A stretch of DNA of 12,324 nucleotides, taken from Dehalococcoidales bacterium (GTDB lineage Bacteria > Chloroflexota > Dehalococcoidia > Dehalococcoidales > UBA5760). A model generated the notes under the pieces. That model was not told where the DNA came from and made no database searches. It saw nothing but the letters and a program-made list of their open reading frames with translations. How positions within the stretch are numbered: position 1 is the first letter of the stretch; each line of letters starts with the position of its first letter. The translations under genes and the position numbers were made by a program. Where the stretch lies: contig JAGYOC010000284.1 in assembly GCA_018399795.1 (NCBI GenBank), forward strand, positions 1-12,324, given 5' to 3'. This document shows positions 1 through 5,825 of this stretch, piece by piece.

Positions 1-701
1 CTAAACGGGTACATCCATGCGGCATTGAAATAGATGGCATTTGTAAGGACGAGGCGGGTCAGGTAATCTATCATACCCTGTGGGATAAGGTCTTCGATTC
101 TGCCCTCGGTTTGTTCGCTAACCCAGTCGTTAATGGTAACGCGAGATTCTTCGGGAGATTCCATGAAATCGAGTACCCTTAGTCCAGCCCCGTAGTTTTG
201 GGCAAGGGTATCAAGAAAATCAGCTAAAAAATCATAATCCTTCTGCCCCCAGATGGCATTAACGGTGTTAAGCCTGAAACCCTCGTCATCTTTACCCCCG
301 GCACCCTCGCCACGGCTGGAAAGTGTCATATCGAGGCTGTTAAAGGCCTGGTGCAGCCTTTCCTGTCCCAGGCCAAAGTGCATAGCATCGGCCATCTCGT
401 CCTCTGTTTCCCCGCGAGCCCCGGCATAGGTCATCGCCAGCGCAAGCGATATGCTGTAGGGTGAATAGAATATATTGCTATCACCCGTTTTCAGGTACTG
501 GTAGAGGTCCATGGCAAAGGCGCTATTATCACTCGCCAGGTCTTCGATAGTACCACCAGATAACTCGGGCGAGGTTACCCTTGGTTTGTCCGATTTGAGT
601 ACTCCAGCCTCAGCAGGGCCGAGCGCAGACTGGGTGCATGCCGTAAGCCCGGTAAAAAGAAGGGCTACCAGGGTTAATATTGTTGCTATCTTTATCTTTA
701 T
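1..701 (-). CDS. Serpin-family protease inhibitor, predicted lipoprotein (3' end outside window)
   Basis: About 233 residues are visible and the frame is still open at position 1. Serpins are suicide inhibitors that trap serine or cysteine proteases. Family features seen: NIFYSPYSISLALAMTYAGA (helix B region), ETEDEMADAMHF, LNTVNAIWGQ, INDWVSEQTEGRIEDLIPQG and LVLTNAIYFNAAW (strand 3A region), in the correct order. The reactive-centre loop lies past the window edge, so inhibitory activity and target cannot be judged. The N-terminus reads IKIKIATILTLVALLFTGLTAC, two pieces of a lipoprotein signal: basic start, hydrophobic stretch and lipobox LTAC, so the protein should be anchored outside the cytoplasmic membrane. 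The start is odd: no ATG, GTG or TTG occurs in frame between the preceding stop (747-749) and the signal peptide. ATA at 699-701 sits 7 bases after a perfect AGGAGG. The first in-frame ATG (510-512) would delete the signal. It is the last visible gene of the sigma-factor operon. Confidence 0.9.
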   Translation of the reverse strand, partial: MKIKIATILTLVALLFTGLTACTQSALGPAEAGVLKSDKPRVTSPELSGGTIEDLASDNSAFAMDLYQYLKTGDSNIFYSPYSISLALAMTYAGARGETEDEMADAMHFGLGQERLHQAFNSLDMTLSSRGEGAGGKDDEGFRLNTVNAIWGQKDYDFLADFLDTLAQNYGAGLRVLDFMESPEESRVTINDWVSEQTEGRIEDLIPQGMIDYLTRLVLTNAIYFNAAWMYPF

Positions 702-708
702 AACATCA

Positions 709-714
709 CCTCCT
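709..714 (-). promoter_or_regulatory. Shine-Dalgarno AGGAGG that places the serpin start at an ATA codon
   Basis: On the minus strand the sequence reads AGGAGGTGATGTTATAAAG. AGGAGG is followed after 7 bases by ATA (699-701), which is in the serpin frame. The nearby ATG (704-706) is only 2 bases from AGGAGG, is in another frame and meets TAA after one codon. The site therefore points to AUA as initiator, or to an ATG changed to ATA by one base. Confidence 0.6.
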
Positions 715-746
715 GGATAGCTATCAACATATCCAGCTCCGATCGC

Positions 747-893
747 TTAGTGCGACGGCACCAGTCGACATTCATACATGCTGGCCCTTGTCCTGTTCCA
801 CAGGTAGGCATATCTATCCCGCTCGGACATGGTAAGCCACTTCAGGTGAAACCATGCTTTATTGATATAATCGATAATTCTTCGTCCTTTCAT
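747..893 (-). CDS. Small basic protein of unknown function, 48 residues
   Basis: A short open reading frame between the anti-sigma-like gene and the serpin gene, on the same strand, with a strong ribosome binding site (GAGGAGGG, then 4 bases, then ATG). It begins MKGRRIIDIINKAWFHLKW and ends CRLVPSH. It is rich in Arg/Lys, Trp and Tyr, with an amphipathic-looking N-terminal half (IIDIINKAWFHLKWL) that could lie on a membrane; there is no clear signal peptide or full transmembrane segment, and one Cys. I do not recognise a family. The start lies 45 bases after the stop of the anti-sigma-like gene, and its TAA stop is 45 bases before the serpin ATA start, in the same frame. The good ribosome site and operon position favour a real gene, but with no homologue known to me it could be chance. 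Confidence 0.55.
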   Translation of the reverse strand: MKGRRIIDYINKAWFHLKWLTMSERDRYAYLWNRTRASMYECRLVPSH

Positions 894-938
894 AATACCC
901 TCCTCATTTTACAAGTCCATTTTCTCCAAACCGAATCT

Positions 939-2147
939 CTATTCAAGAGATATTTGAAACTCCCATGGGCCTTCATAATCCCCGAGTCTTGTTATGGTGA
1001 AGGTCAGTTCCTCGGTGCCCTTGGGCACAGGGTCGAGCATATCCCATGTATGAAGCATGCCGTTGCTCAGAAAATGGATGCCAGATAGCCCCGCCTCGAT
1101 GGTCCGCTTCCCATCCAGGGTATACTCCGCATCGGCATGAAGCGACATAAGCGGTGGAGGAGGCAGGTTGGGCCCCTGGGGCAGGTCATAATCAGGCGGT
1201 ACATTAAAGGCATAGAACCTGGCTTCGGTAGTGGTGATCTCCACACGTTCTAGGGTGATGGTAATTCCATTGACCATCTTTGACGCATTCACCTCTATTG
1301 TTTTTTCTATCGTGCCCTCCTCGGGCAGAATAAGGAACGAGACATATCTATGCCGGCTGATCGAAGTCCAGCCCTCTTCAAGGCGGACACGCCCGAATTC
1401 GAGGTAGTAACGGCCATGGGGTACCTGTTCCCCCCGATCATCGAGCTGGTCCCATGTGAGTGTATAGCTGGCTATTTCTCCCGGTTCCAGAGACTTGCTT
1501 CTCTCCCCGGCGGAAAAAGTACGAGCTGCCTCGTCGTAGGGGTAACTGCGCATTATCCTTATCTCTGGGGGAAATGGCTTTAACTCCAGGCTTCCATCAG
1601 TGCCGTTTTTGAACGATAGGTTTATTACGATCTCCTCGCCCGGCATGTAGACATCCTTATCTAAAACCGCATCACCTTCTACCGGGATAGTAATGCCGGG
1701 GGTGGGTGCAGGTCCGGGTACCGGTCCGGGCTCCGGCTCTGGCGCCTGAGCGGTTTCCGGTATGGGGGGTTCTTCATCAAGTAATTTAGGAGTAAAATAG
1801 GTAAACACACCTGAATAGCCCATAATAACAACTATGACAAGGGCCGAAACAAGTCCCACCGTTACCGTACGCCATACCGGCTGCTTCCAGTTCTCCCACA
1901 GTCGCTCCCAGAAAGAGCCTTCCATTTCATGCTCAGCTTCTCTTTCCTTCTTTTCAATTTTTTGAAGCAGCCTGTTTCTGAGCGTATCGTGGAATAGAGG
2001 GGAAGGGCTCATCCGGAGGCTTAGCATCCTTCTGGCAAAATCGAGGGCCGACCGGCTGTCCTCGTTCAGTCCCGGCTCTATCTCTTTACCCTGAAGAACA
2101 CTCTCGAGGTTATTGAGAACATCTCTTTCCATATCTTTCTTATCCAT
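939..2147 (-). CDS. Membrane anti-sigma-factor-like protein with an extracytoplasmic BsuPI-like domain
   Basis: 402 residues. Seen: a charged cytoplasmic N-terminus (1-90) with a helical segment SALDFARRMLSL...LRNRLLQKIEKKERE of the kind found in partners of ECF sigma factors; one membrane helix at about 92-115; a Pro/Glu/Gly-rich linker (126-150); a beta-rich domain at about 158-252 whose pattern (VYMPGEEIVINLSFKNGTD, ARTFSAGE, LEPGEIASYTLTWDQ, VPHGRYYLEFG) resembles the BsuPI intracellular proteinase inhibitor family; and a C-terminal domain (about 278-402) ending EGPWEFQISLE, like the end of DUF4179/DUF5643 proteins. There is no cysteine, so it is not a zinc-binding (ZAS) anti-sigma. The ATG lies 4 bases after the sigma-factor stop, implying translational coupling. 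Inference: it holds the sigma factor at the membrane and senses an outside signal. The BsuPI assignment rests on pattern only; a generic Ig-like domain is the alternative. Confidence 0.75.
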   Translation of the reverse strand: MDKKDMERDVLNNLESVLQGKEIEPGLNEDSRSALDFARRMLSLRMSPSPLFHDTLRNRLLQKIEKKEREAEHEMEGSFWERLWENWKQPVWRTVTVGLVSALVIVVIMGYSGVFTYFTPKLLDEEPPIPETAQAPEPEPGPVPGPAPTPGITIPVEGDAVLDKDVYMPGEEIVINLSFKNGTDGSLELKPFPPEIRIMRSYPYDEAARTFSAGERSKSLEPGEIASYTLTWDQLDDRGEQVPHGRYYLEFGRVRLEEGWTSISRHRYVSFLILPEEGTIEKTIEVNASKMVNGITITLERVEITTTEARFYAFNVPPDYDLPQGPNLPPPPLMSLHADAEYTLDGKRTIEAGLSGIHFLSNGMLHTWDMLDPVPKGTEELTFTITRLGDYEGPWEFQISLE

Positions 2148-2151
2148 TCTG

Positions 2152-2700
2152 CTACCCCCCGAAGCAATCTCTCAGCCTTCTTATGGAGCGATAGAGGATC
2201 GTCCCAACATTGGTCTCGGATAGACCCAGTATACCGGCAATCTGCCGGTTATTGAGCTCGCTCCCAAACTTAAGCGAGACTATTTCCTGTTCCTGCACAG
2301 AAAGTGCTGCCAGGCATACCTTAACCCTCTGCTGCTCTTCCTGGCGTTCATATTCTTCTTCGGGCGACGATTTTGTCTCTTGCATCTCGACTATATTCTC
2401 CAGAGGTACCGTCTTTTTCCTTTCAGCCTTCCTGTAGTGATCTATAAGCGTATTGCGGGCTATGGTAAAGAGCCAGGTCGAGATTGACGATTTGCCGGGT
2501 TTGTAGCTGGCAAATTTATCGATTACCTTCTCGAACACTTCCGAGGTAAGATCCTCAGCCACGCATTTATCGCTTACCCTATAGGTCATATACCGAAATA
2601 CCCTGGGTAAATACTGCTCGTAGAGCTCGATAAATTTATCCCTCGATACCCCGGCATTGCCGACCGACGGCTTATCTAATATGCCTTCTGGTTTTTTCAA
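2152..2700 (-). CDS. RNA polymerase sigma factor, ECF (sigma-70 family) type
   Basis: 182 residues, usual for ECF sigma factors: only regions 2 and 4 are present. Region 2 spans about 22-92 (FIELYEQYLPRVFRYMTYRV, AEDLTSEVFEKVI, STWLFTIARNTLIDHYR), covering core-enzyme and -10 contacts. A charged Glu/Gln-rich linker follows (about 100-125). Region 4 (about 128-177) has a helix-turn-helix, NRQIAGILGLSETNVGTILYR, for -35 recognition. The start is TTG at 2698-2700, preceded by GAGGAAA at a good distance; a later start would leave region 2 intact and cannot be excluded. It is the first gene of the minus-strand group that continues with the anti-sigma-like protein, a small ORF and a serpin, so these are its likely co-regulated partners. 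Which promoters it reads is not visible; the promoter I can see ahead of it looks like a housekeeping one. Confidence 0.95.
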   Translation of the reverse strand: MKKPEGILDKPSVGNAGVSRDKFIELYEQYLPRVFRYMTYRVSDKCVAEDLTSEVFEKVIDKFASYKPGKSSISTWLFTIARNTLIDHYRKAERKKTVPLENIVEMQETKSSPEEEYERQEEQQRVKVCLAALSVQEQEIVSLKFGSELNNRQIAGILGLSETNVGTILYRSIRRLRDCFGG

Positions 2701-2728
2701 AAGCTTTCCTCGAGGTTGCTTCTATATG

Positions 2729-2757
2729 ATTATACGAAGCCATTGAGAAAGTATCAC
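2729..2757 (-). promoter_or_regulatory. Putative promoter of the sigma factor-serpin operon
   Basis: On the minus strand GTGATA (2752-2757) and a consensus TATAAT (2729-2734) are separated by 17 bases. The transcript would start about 20 bases before the sigma-factor TTG. The -10 is perfect and the -35 matches 4 of 6. No ECF-style GGAAC -35 was seen here, so self-regulation is not supported by this site. Confidence 0.4.
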
Positions 2758-2876
2758 GAAAATTCAACTCTCATGTTTGGATATGAGTGAATAAATGGAA
2801 TAAATAATGAATATACTGAAGAAATGAAAATCAGGAGGTAAGTCTAAATTGTAAACATCTTTTAATGTAAATGGCC

Positions 2877-2891
2877 GGGTAATTATTACCC
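2877..2891. repeat. Inverted repeat GGGTAAT-T-ATTACCC, operator-like
   Basis: Two perfect 7-base arms separated by one base. The size and AT-rich centre are like sites for dimeric regulators. It lies about 140 bases upstream of the putative sigma-operon promoter, and no regulator gene is adjacent. The other sides show no T-run, so it is not a terminator. Confidence 0.4.
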
Positions 2892-3060
2892 TTTCCGTAT
2901 ACAATCACACGATCTAAGCGCATGTGTAACGAGTCGCAATACCTTTTGTTTTTATAAGCCTTTTTTATTTACTATTGCAGTAAGGTGATGCCGTGAAAAC
3001 TATCACTCATTAGTTCGAAAATCATTTGTTAGTATTCTGGCTGGGAAAAGGCCGCTATGG

Positions 3061-3741
3061 CTATTGTTTGGTGGCATTACCCGTGCGGTCCGCATCCTCC
3101 TTCGATTTCTGGAGGTAACCCCTTAAACGGCTGATGTTTTTGGGAAGGGCAAGCCCGATACCGGGAAGCAGGTATAGAAAAGCGCCCGGGGCCAGGAAAT
3201 ACATCGGAATCAAGCAAAAGGACAGGCCGATTACCCGCCCCAGTATCTGGGCACCGAGGGCATGGAACACCTTTCTGAATCCGCCCTCTATCCGGCCTTT
3301 CGTCCCGTACTCGGTAGCCAGTATGGCGGCCAGCATCACCCCCAGGCAGGCCGGCACAATATACGGGTTCACAGCAAGCAGCACGCCCAGAAAGCTGGCC
3401 AGGCCCCTTCCACCACGGAACCGGAGAAAGAGGGAGTAATTGTGCCCCATCACGACAAAGAAAACGCCGGTCATCAGGGCAAAACCGGGGTCATAGCCCA
3501 GGTAGTAAAGCCACTGTACGATGAAGACCACCAGGGCGCCCTTCCCGACATCAAGTGCCGTGGCCAGGACCATCAGTTTTATGGAGCCCGTGGTCCGGTA
3601 TACGTTCATGGCACCGACATTGCCGGAACCCTTTAGCCAGACCAGTTCCCCACCTGCCTGCCTGGTAATCAGAAAGGCGGTGGGTATGGAACCGATAATG
3701 TAGGCTATGCCCGCGATTAGAATCAGCCACAAATTTTGCAT
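3061..3741 (-). CDS. plsY: Glycerol-3-phosphate acyltransferase PlsY
   Basis: Membrane enzyme that moves an acyl group from acyl-phosphate to glycerol 3-phosphate, the first step of phospholipid synthesis in most bacteria. Seen from the ATG at 3739-3741 (226 residues): GSIPTAFLI (17-25), GSGNVGAMNVYRTTG (38-52) and GHNYSLFLRFRGGRG (99-113), which are the three conserved cytoplasmic-loop motifs of PlsY, set between hydrophobic segments. The length is slightly above the usual 190-220, owing to a charged C-terminal tail. A TTG at 3751-3753 is an alternative start (4 more residues), but the putative promoter would place the transcript start almost on it, so I prefer the ATG; neither has a strong ribosome site. 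The gene stands alone, divergent from the oxidoreductase gene. Confidence 0.95.
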   Translation of the reverse strand: MQNLWLILIAGIAYIIGSIPTAFLITRQAGGELVWLKGSGNVGAMNVYRTTGSIKLMVLATALDVGKGALVVFIVQWLYYLGYDPGFALMTGVFFVVMGHNYSLFLRFRGGRGLASFLGVLLAVNPYIVPACLGVMLAAILATEYGTKGRIEGGFRKVFHALGAQILGRVIGLSFCLIPMYFLAPGAFLYLLPGIGLALPKNISRLRGYLQKSKEDADRTGNATKQ

Positions 3742-3854: not shown

Positions 3855-5825
3855 ATGGTAATTTCCACCGAAGCGACCGTTAAAGGGTACGCGGGTTCCA
3901 TACTTCTCTGCGACCTTTCCCGACGGGAAATTTCCCGGCTGGATACCATGGACTATGCCGCCGGCTTTCTCGGTGGCAGGGGGCTTGCTGCCTCCCTATA
4001 CTGGCACCTCGCGGCACCGGTAAAGGAAGCGCTCGGCCCGGAAAACCCGCTGATATTTGTCACCGGGCCACTGGCCGGTTTTTCCGGGCTTGCCGGGTCG
4101 CGGTGGCAGGTATACACCCGGTCGCCATCGGTGATACCGCCTTCGTTCAGTTACAGCAACATGGGCGGGAGCTGGGGTACCCATCTCAAGCTCGCCGGAT
4201 TCGATGCCCTGGTGGTTACCGGGGTGGCAGACAGCCCGGTTTATCTGTTCATACACGACGGCATTTGTGAATTCCGGGATGCTGATCACCTCCGGGGAAT
4301 GGGTGCCGCCCGAAGCAGGGAGTCTTTGAAGGCGGAACTGGGGAAGGCGGTCAGGATACTCGCCATAGGTCCCGGCGGCGAACGGGTGATACCCTTTGCT
4401 ACTATTCTTGCTGACGATGACGCCAGTGGCTCCGGGGGAGCCGGTGCCGTTATGGGTTACAAGGGAATCAAGGCGATTGCGGTGGCCGGCAAAGGCTACC
4501 CCCAGCCACACGACCCCCGGAAACTGGAGGAGATCACCCGTTATTTACGCGAACTGAAAAGACGGGAGCCACGGGAGGACATTATATCACCCCCCGGTAT
4601 GAAGATGAGCCGGAAAGCCTGCCTGGGGTGTATTGCCGGGTGCCTGCGTTCCACACTGAGAAGGGTTGGAGGCGAGCAGGGCAAATACCTCTGTACCTCA
4701 GGGTTCTTCTACGAAGACCTGGCCCGTGATTACTACCGCCAGGATAACGAAGTCCCCTTCCTGGCAAATCGGCTCTGTGACGACGTGGGGCTGGATATCA
4801 ACACCATCGATACCATGATCAGGTGGCTTTGCCGCTGCTACCAAAGGGGAGTTATCCCGGAAAAGGAAGGCGGCATTCCTCTTTCCCGGCCGGGAAGCTA
4901 CGAATTTATCCGAAGTCTGGTAGAAAGCATAGCCAGTCGGGAAGGGTTGGGTGCCTTTCTGGCGGGTGGAATATACGGAGCGGCTGAGCATCTCGGCCAT
5001 GCTGCCGGGGAGCTGATTCCCGATAATGTCTGTCGCGACGGCACCGGCGTTGCCTACGGCCCAAGGATGTACCCTGCCAACGCACTTATCTTCGCCACGG
5101 AGCCAAGGCAGTCCATACCGATGACGGCGGAGACCGGCCGGACCGTGCTCAAATGGCTGGAATGGATGGGTGGGGGCAGAAAACCCGAAACCGCTGATGA
5201 CAACAGGGAGCCGGCCTTGCCCTTTATTCCGGGAAATCCGGTTAGCCTTGACGATATGGAGTTTATCGCAAGGCGCTTCTGGGGTACCACTCAGGCAATG
5301 GACTTCTCCACTTACCGGGGTAAAGCCCGGGCGGCGAAAGCGATACAGGACCGCCATTCCCTCAAGGAGAGTGCCATTCTGTGCCACTTCTCCTGGCATA
5401 CCAGCCAGATAGAGTTTTTCCGGCCCGGCATAATTGCCGAGGTCATCAACGCGGTTACCGGCCAGAGCTATGATGAGGACGGCATCTATGGGCTTGGGGA
5501 ACGCATCTATAACCTGCAGCGCGCCATCCATATCCTGGAGCGGAATTGTGGCCGGGAGTACGATGTGCTTCCGGGGGCTTGGTATGATTCTCCCCTCGCT
5601 GAATCATTTCTGAATCCGGAACTCCTCGCTCCGGGATCGGGAGGAAAACCCGTGACCAGGAAGGGCGCCGTGCTGGACAGAGAAGAGGTTGAGCTTATGA
5701 AGGATGAGTACTACCGTCTGCGGGGTTGGGATGAGGCAACCGGGCTACAGACAGAGGCAAAACTCAAGGCTCTCGGCCTTGATGCGGTATCTAAGAAGCT
5801 CTCTGCTCTGAAACTGACACGCTGA
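3855..5825 (+). CDS. Tungsten/molybdenum aldehyde:ferredoxin oxidoreductase (AOR) family protein
   Basis: 656 residues, slightly longer than the usual 600-640. Members oxidise aldehydes to acids (or reduce acids) using a tungsten or molybdenum bis-pyranopterin and one 4Fe-4S cluster, passing electrons to ferredoxin, in the cytoplasm of anaerobes. Seen: N-terminal GYAGSILLCDLSRREIS and GFLGGRGLA (GGRG at 40-43), SNMGGSWGTHLKLAGFDALV, GPGGERVIPFATILADD followed by GGAGAVMGYKGIKAIAV (cofactor-binding region), and cysteines C256-x2-C259-x3-C263 plus C510 (ILCHF), matching the four cluster ligands of the family. The C-terminus (DEYYRLRGWDEATGLQTEAKLKALGL) is typical. The substrate cannot be told from sequence; subfamilies include aldehyde, formaldehyde, glyceraldehyde-3-phosphate and benzoyl-CoA-type enzymes. 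The ATG has only a weak ribosome site (GGG). No pterin-synthesis, MoaD-like or ferredoxin gene is adjacent. Confidence 0.93.
   Translation: MVISTEATVKGYAGSILLCDLSRREISRLDTMDYAAGFLGGRGLAASLYWHLAAPVKEALGPENPLIFVTGPLAGFSGLAGSRWQVYTRSPSVIPPSFSYSNMGGSWGTHLKLAGFDALVVTGVADSPVYLFIHDGICEFRDADHLRGMGAARSRESLKAELGKAVRILAIGPGGERVIPFATILADDDASGSGGAGAVMGYKGIKAIAVAGKGYPQPHDPRKLEEITRYLRELKRREPREDIISPPGMKMSRKACLGCIAGCLRSTLRRVGGEQGKYLCTSGFFYEDLARDYYRQDNEVPFLANRLCDDVGLDINTIDTMIRWLCRCYQRGVIPEKEGGIPLSRPGSYEFIRSLVESIASREGLGAFLAGGIYGAAEHLGHAAGELIPDNVCRDGTGVAYGPRMYPANALIFATEPRQSIPMTAETGRTVLKWLEWMGGGRKPETADDNREPALPFIPGNPVSLDDMEFIARRFWGTTQAMDFSTYRGKARAAKAIQDRHSLKESAILCHFSWHTSQIEFFRPGIIAEVINAVTGQSYDEDGIYGLGERIYNLQRAIHILERNCGREYDVLPGAWYDSPLAESFLNPELLAPGSGGKPVTRKGAVLDREEVELMKDEYYRLRGWDEATGLQTEAKLKALGLDAVSKKLSALKLTR

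Follow-up and report, generated by a model that had tools for sequence, protein, structure and literature searches.

Why should a serpin gene stand behind an extracytoplasmic function (ECF) sigma factor gene and its membrane-bound partner? The question is raised by the first 2760 nucleotides (nt) of a 12,324-nt stretch of contig JAGYOC010000284.1 from a Dehalococcoidales bacterium (the whole stretch is called the window below). An earlier note on this DNA had described four reading frames on one strand in the order sigma factor, membrane protein, 48-residue open reading frame (ORF) and serpin, and had suggested that they form a module that senses and blocks attacking proteases; all four frames are present in that order on the minus strand. 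Our analysis makes it probable that the ECF system drives its own operon together with a regulon in which protease inhibitors, drawn from three unrelated families, are prominent, the serpin lying in line with the operon of the window. Support at the level of sequence comes from the pairing of the two regulatory genes, from a conserved promoter, and from inhibitor genes found behind that promoter in relatives. The features of the locus are as follows.

2732..2757, minus strand: predicted ECF-type autoregulatory promoter of the sigma gene, GTGATACT-N13-CGTAT, 31 nt ahead of the TTG start
2152..2700, minus strand: ECF sigma factor, 182 residues, TTG start; PF04542 and PF08281, best NCBIfam match TIGR02952, under its cut-off
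939..2147, minus strand: putative membrane anti-sigma factor, 402 residues; helical cytoplasmic part 1-89, transmembrane helix about 90-111, proline-rich linker, immunoglobulin-like (Ig-like) domains 153-276 and 281-402
747..893, minus strand: 48-residue ORF, unconfirmed as a gene, in a frame shared with the serpin
1..701, minus strand: serpin with lipobox, 233 codons to the window end; codon ATA at the start position, behind AGGAGG

The sigma factor operon

The gaps along the row measure 4 nt between the sigma gene and the 402-residue gene, 45 nt from there to the 48-residue ORF, and about 45 nt from the ORF to the serpin frame. In a Pfam profile search the first protein matched PF04542 (E = 2.5e-19) and PF08281 (E = 1.1e-8), both above cut-off, and its identity as an ECF sigma factor is borne out by its short length of 182 residues and by its sigma-70 regions 2 and 4. 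The 48-residue protein fared less well: its reading frame exists and is preceded by a good ribosome site, but among 5.8 billion proteins only its self-match was returned at E ≤ 10 (the search requires shared words of five residues), and with no homologue its status as a gene is unconfirmed. Scans of positions 1-3100 for sigma-70 promoters and for terminators gave matches in no more than chance numbers.

A conserved pair and its predicted promoter

The 402-residue protein has 220 homologues, 28 of which (the window protein included) align over the full length and form the set A1. Profile searches covered 294 genomes of the class, 18 of them with a match to A1, and 156 genomes of the order, taken as Dehalococcoidales, 31 of them with a match. 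The genomic context was read for 32 relatives that share the N-terminal domain of the protein; G331 and G332 share the domain as well and stand outside this set. The sigma gene lies directly upstream of the anti-sigma gene, usually overlapping it, in 32 of the 32 relatives. Judged by this gene order, the two are a conserved pair in the Dehalococcoidia.

A count of bipartite words took in the regions ahead of 27 sigma genes, that of the window among them, after removal of five close kin from 32 regions. The top word pair occurs in 15 of the 27 regions, against a maximum of 3-4 in eight shuffles. A relaxed form of GTRATACT-N13-CGTAY precedes the sigma genes of 22 out of 31 relatives (L158 is not in the promoter lists, because its contig starts at the sigma gene), and the window carries the exact form at 2757-2732. 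A matrix built from the sigma sites of 16 relatives scores 33.6 at the sigma site of the window and 6.1 at the next-best position in the whole window. From these patterns we infer that GTRATACT-N13-CGTAY is the promoter read by this sigma factor, which would thus be autoregulatory.

Genes behind the promoter in other genomes

By a match to the N-terminal domain, 23 genomes of the order have the pair and 133 do not. The former contain 66 exact sites, with one for the reversed-pattern control, and the latter 18, with a control count of 19. Targets of the 66 sites were assigned by hand: 17 are sigma genes, 8 are I42 (chagasin) genes, 6 encode alpha-2-macroglobulins, 4 serpins and 6 VWA lipoproteins, 2 are SIMPL genes, DUF4349 and PrcB_C have one each, and 21 fall in no named family or were not read.

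The same association was found from coordinates, using 97 of 109 serpin rows and 108 of 140 I42 rows after the weakest matches, mostly fragments, had been dropped. In genomes of the order with the pair, 4 of the 19 serpins have an exact site in the 600 nt ahead of them; in genomes without it the count is 0 of 78 (p = 0.001; all p values are uncorrected for kinship). The corresponding numbers for I42 genes are 8 of 29 and 1 of 79 (p = 9e-5); the single exception, in G414 (L198), belongs to a genome that carries promoter sites and whose sigma gene may be missing from the assembly. When the sigma-trained matrix was applied to class and order together, scores of at least 16 were reached upstream of 8 of 22 serpins in genomes with the pair (G218, G328, G330, G339, G340, G341 and, twice, G350) vs 0 of 119 in genomes without it (p = 1e-7). 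The best of these 119, at 15.4, is in G347, a genome with a match to the ectodomain only. For I42 the matrix test (6 of 15 vs 1 of 22) carries a bias, since several of its loci had entered the set as pair neighbours or through the motif itself; its unbiased part gives 2 of 7 vs 0 of 21 (p = 0.06), and our claim for I42 relies on the coordinate test.

The alpha-2-macroglobulin genes behind a site encode MG2 and MG3 (three tested) and TED domains, with the thioester motif GCGEQ in all six that were read. The spread of such sites can be followed in G341, where all matches lie on one 2.3-Mb contig: its five sites stand ahead of the sigma gene, an I42 gene 170 kb away, an alpha-2-macroglobulin gene, a SIMPL lipoprotein gene and the gene of a large secreted protein, which begins 413 nt on. 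Because the sites are enriched in genomes that have the pair, and precede serpin, I42 and alpha-2-macroglobulin genes, we read them as a regulon of this sigma factor.

How far this regulon would concern proteases is a separate matter, since VWA, SIMPL, DUF4349-PKD, PrcB_C and large secreted proteins also lie behind the site, and a SIMPL or VWA gene is often the one next downstream of the pair. These targets would suit a general envelope-stress ECF system, one that answers any damage to the cell surface with a mixed set of surface lipoproteins (VWA, SIMPL, DUF4349) of which the inhibitors are one part. We regard this as a possible explanation, though not as the probable one: three unrelated inhibitor families account for 18 of the 49 non-sigma sites in the 23 genomes (hand tally), while inhibitors make up a handful of genes per genome.

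Some of these targets deserve description. The PrcB_C (PF14343) protein behind the promoter in G349 (L340, 965-1459, minus strand) has a lipoprotein-like start. In G339, G341 and G340, large secreted proteins (L326, L328 and L294, respectively) follow the promoter at a distance of about 400 nt; they look like surface-layer proteins, and that of L326, the one tested, gave no informative Pfam match.

The membrane protein and its outer domain

The 402-residue protein has the layout of a membrane anti-sigma factor: it adjoins the sigma gene, and it combines a cytoplasmic N-terminal domain with a single transmembrane helix. Its structural model (mean predicted local distance difference test score, pLDDT, 84) consists of N-terminal helices, one transmembrane helix at about 90-111, the proline-rich linker and two beta-sandwich domains. 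The N-terminal domain of the window protein matched no Pfam anti-sigma family. The ectodomain is mobile, being carried by zf-HC2 anti-sigma proteins in 12 of 102 aligned homologues and by solo lipoproteins in others, in keeping with an anti-sigma factor whose outer part can be exchanged. To judge from these sequences, such a factor, restraining the sigma factor by binding it, is the likely identity of the protein.

The earlier note had likened the outer part to the proteinase inhibitor BsuPI (PF12690). Against this profile the 402-residue protein scores 18.8 bits (E = 0.0016), below the cut-off of 22.9. Outer domain 1, modelled alone (pLDDT 93), does match the BsuPI structure 3isy in Foldseek (E = 1.7e-4, TM-scores 0.57/0.62), but at rank 48; Ig-like domains of Spo0M, RbmA, transglutaminase and GH3 proteins match it too, many with better E-values or Z-scores than 3isy. 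BsuPI is not among the 50 matches listed in three other structure comparisons, and a sequence search of the PDB with the ectodomain family A2 returned mainly pieces of arrestin and FlgD (best E = 0.0036). The modelled outer domain is an Ig-like sandwich of a generic kind, with BsuPI among its matches. What it has in common with BsuPI (IPI) of Bacillus subtilis is an Ig-like sandwich, a likeness that is non-specific; sequence score and the setting within a membrane anti-sigma protein set the two apart. The inhibitor status of BsuPI is itself described as disputed, and the protein as removed from MEROPS over doubt about its role (PMC3901451).

Could the ectodomain be the effector, a BsuPI-like protease inhibitor or surface decoy of which solo lipoprotein copies exist, as LbpA does next to RsiV? 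The fold match to 3isy would agree with this, as would the BsuPI matches of 42 of the 102 homologues at E ≤ 0.01, a solo lipoprotein homologue (P0008) with 68% identity over 68% of the query, and an I42 domain in four homologues. We nevertheless consider it unlikely, given the generic nature of the fold, the BsuPI score below cut-off, and the absence of any site in the 350 nt ahead of 22 solo-ectodomain or zf-HC2 anti-sigma genes (21 distinct, one locus being counted twice; for the zf-HC2 type this stretch lies within its own sigma gene).

Four ectodomain homologues, P0033, P0039, P0050 and P0055, have a C-terminal I42 domain and are without the anti-sigma domain; a lipoprotein-like signal is seen in three. 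The ectodomain was also found on contigs L009 and L010, binned as Deltaproteobacteria and Archaeoglobales, by transfer or misbinning.

The serpin and gene order in relatives

The serpin of the window matches PF00079 with E = 1.2e-49 and 169.9 bits, above cut-off. The match covers profile positions 2-170 of 370 because the window ends inside the gene, which places the reactive loop and the inhibitory hinge region beyond its edge; the hinge is present in 133 of 138 serpins of relatives. A signal sequence follows directly after AGGAGG, and its LTAC is presumably the lipobox.

Serpins are common, occurring in 77 of the 294 class genomes and 88 of the 156 order genomes. Co-occurrence of the module with a serpin was considered as a link between the two and rejected, as a serpin occurs in 21 of the 31 order genomes with any A1 match vs 88 of 156 overall, no clear excess. 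An A1 match and a serpin share a contig only in G122, G163, G328, G330, G388 and G341, and are never adjacent there.

ECF sigma genes lie within 6 kb of a serpin gene, upstream and on the same strand, at 8 of 144 serpin loci, and at none in the three other orientations (L133, a 451-residue RpoD-like match, is set aside from this count). Six of the eight belong to one sigma group, one is found with a DUF5667 protein (L107), and one is L235.

As for other inhibitors, 5 of the 32 relatives have an I42 gene no more than 1 kb behind the pair and a sixth has a divergent one, compared with a background of 2 of 944 genes at 1.5 kb. The I42-linked sigma factors (five of the six are present in the sigma tree) all fall within one supported group of 12, so this linkage may be a single old event; the sigma factor of the window is not in that group, and lies outside every starred group of the tree.

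That a wandering serpin, perhaps broken at its start codon, merely came to lie downstream of an ordinary sigma/anti-sigma pair is the least probable explanation: serpin neighbourhoods are diverse, the adjacency is unique to the window against the 32 relatives and ATA occupies the start position, but ECF sigma genes near serpins keep to one orientation and the promoter of this sigma factor precedes serpins elsewhere.

Inhibitor genes also meet each other. In L198 and L231, I42 and serpin genes adjoin on one strand, and a 793-residue ORF of L118 (4823-7204, plus strand) matches both the I42 and the serpin profiles, apparently as a fused two-inhibitor protein.

Weighing the proposed regulon

Several observations count against a regulon of protease inhibitors that includes the serpin of the window. 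The serpin adjoins the pair in 0 of the 32 relatives, 26 of which have at least 1.5 kb of sequence downstream; the earlier note had itself named such an outcome as a refutation, and we reject the adjacency as a conserved trait. Motif and matrix scans found no site in the window between the anti-sigma and serpin genes and none directly before the serpin, although many relatives carry a second site behind the anti-sigma gene. As the only site stands before the sigma gene, the case for serpin control in the window is one of co-direction alone. The codon at the serpin start position (699-701) is ATA, the first in-frame ATG, GTG or TTG comes at 512, within the serpin fold, and the reactive loop falls outside the window. 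ATA is either a rare start, a mistake in the sequence of this one metagenome contig, or the mark of a damaged gene.

Across genomes, 18 of the 66 sites precede inhibitors, 17 sigma genes and 31 other genes (VWA, SIMPL and DUF4349 lipoproteins, and unassigned ones). The regulon would therefore not consist of inhibitors only, and the VWA, SIMPL and DUF4349 targets weigh against a pure anti-protease role. In genomes with the pair, the exact site is missing before 15 of the 19 serpins and 21 of the 29 I42 genes. Among the nearest relatives of the window by sigma factor, G001, G004 and G006 have one exact site each, before the sigma gene. For the alpha-2-macroglobulins, 7 of 12 upstream regions in genomes with the pair score at least 14 and 4 at least 16, a count that stands without a control set (13 of 14 MG2 genes above cut-off were scored, with G419:C87, near a contig end, and weaker matches left out, and G414 as the only genome covered besides those with the pair). 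Several genomes are close kin, and the p values given above overstate the differences.

What survives of the earlier proposal is a sigma module deploying protease inhibitors, as suggested by the promoter that serpin, I42 and alpha-2-macroglobulin genes share where the pair is present; the conserved adjacency and the specific likeness to BsuPI do not.

A mechanism can be outlined for the regulon reading. The one-pass membrane anti-sigma factor would hold the ECF sigma factor until an outside signal, either proteolytic attack or envelope damage, frees it, presumably by regulated proteolysis. From GTRATACT-N13-CGTAY the freed sigma factor would transcribe its own operon; in relatives it would also transcribe genes for secreted or lipid-anchored proteins, prominent among them serpin, I42 chagasin and thioester alpha-2-macroglobulin. 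In the window, whose sole site stands before the sigma gene, the serpin would be expressed by transcription running on from the sigma promoter. As to the trigger, a protease may be bound by the ectodomain, much as lysozyme is by RsiV (PMC9044953); alternatively, the attacker may cut the exposed linker or the ectodomain, which would then act as bait. A wider picture, which may be right but which we advance tentatively, is an acute-phase-like anti-protease response of the Dehalococcoidia, in which one ECF switch with an Ig-like membrane sensor responds to external proteases that cut or bind this sensor by bringing out serpins, chagasin-type inhibitors and thioester alpha-2-macroglobulins as a set.

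Neighbouring genes

An aldehyde ferredoxin oxidoreductase family protein is encoded at 3855-5825 on the plus strand of the window; we saw no link between this gene neighbourhood and the sigma-serpin finding. Around the oxidoreductase gene lie genes for a glycerol-3-phosphate acyltransferase, a pterin-binding (FolP-like) protein, an RNase H-like protein, a UPF0004/radical SAM protein and RecJ. A 418-residue ORF of the window we take, by eye, to be HisS.

Relation to known systems

As described in PMC9044953, the SigV/RsiV/LbpA system, the lysozyme response of Bacillus subtilis and Clostridioides difficile, likewise joins an ECF sigma factor to a membrane anti-sigma factor, has the attacking enzyme outside as its signal and a regulon that gives resistance, and includes a second copy of the sensor domain that lacks the part for sigma binding. 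It differs in responding to lysozyme with wall modification, whereas the system of the window type would have protease inhibitors among its outputs. In Bifidobacterium breve a protease-inducible two-component system adjoins the serpin operon (cited in PMC8012564). There, too, a dedicated regulator stands beside a bacterial serpin, protease induction being a feature of the B. breve system; the regulator here is an ECF sigma factor instead of a two-component system, and three inhibitor families are concerned vs the one described in that source.

A second type of sigma-serpin operon was found in six genomes (L044, L085, L093, L096, L097 and L098), with a 187-residue ECF sigma factor, a membrane partner and a serpin on one strand. 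The partner is or adjoins a beta-propeller protein in five of the six (PF09826 by test in L085 and L098, by clustering in L044, L093 and L097); in L096 it is just a short membrane protein. This type belongs to another sigma group than the window.

ECF sigma/anti-sigma pairs, bacterial serpins, I42 inhibitors and alpha-2-macroglobulins are all known families, and their joint control by one ECF promoter appears to be new: among the top-ranked entries of longer lists of open-access literature, with subscription papers outside the search, we found no paper linking an ECF sigma factor to a serpin, a chagasin or a bacterial alpha-2-macroglobulin.

To learn which selection pressure lies behind serpins in commensal and sediment bacteria, given their absence from most bacteria, is presented as a major open goal in PMC8233489. 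A named promoter and a short list of targets make this question testable. If the regulon reading is true, free-living bacteria would control serpins, chagasins and alpha-2-macroglobulins through one regulator.

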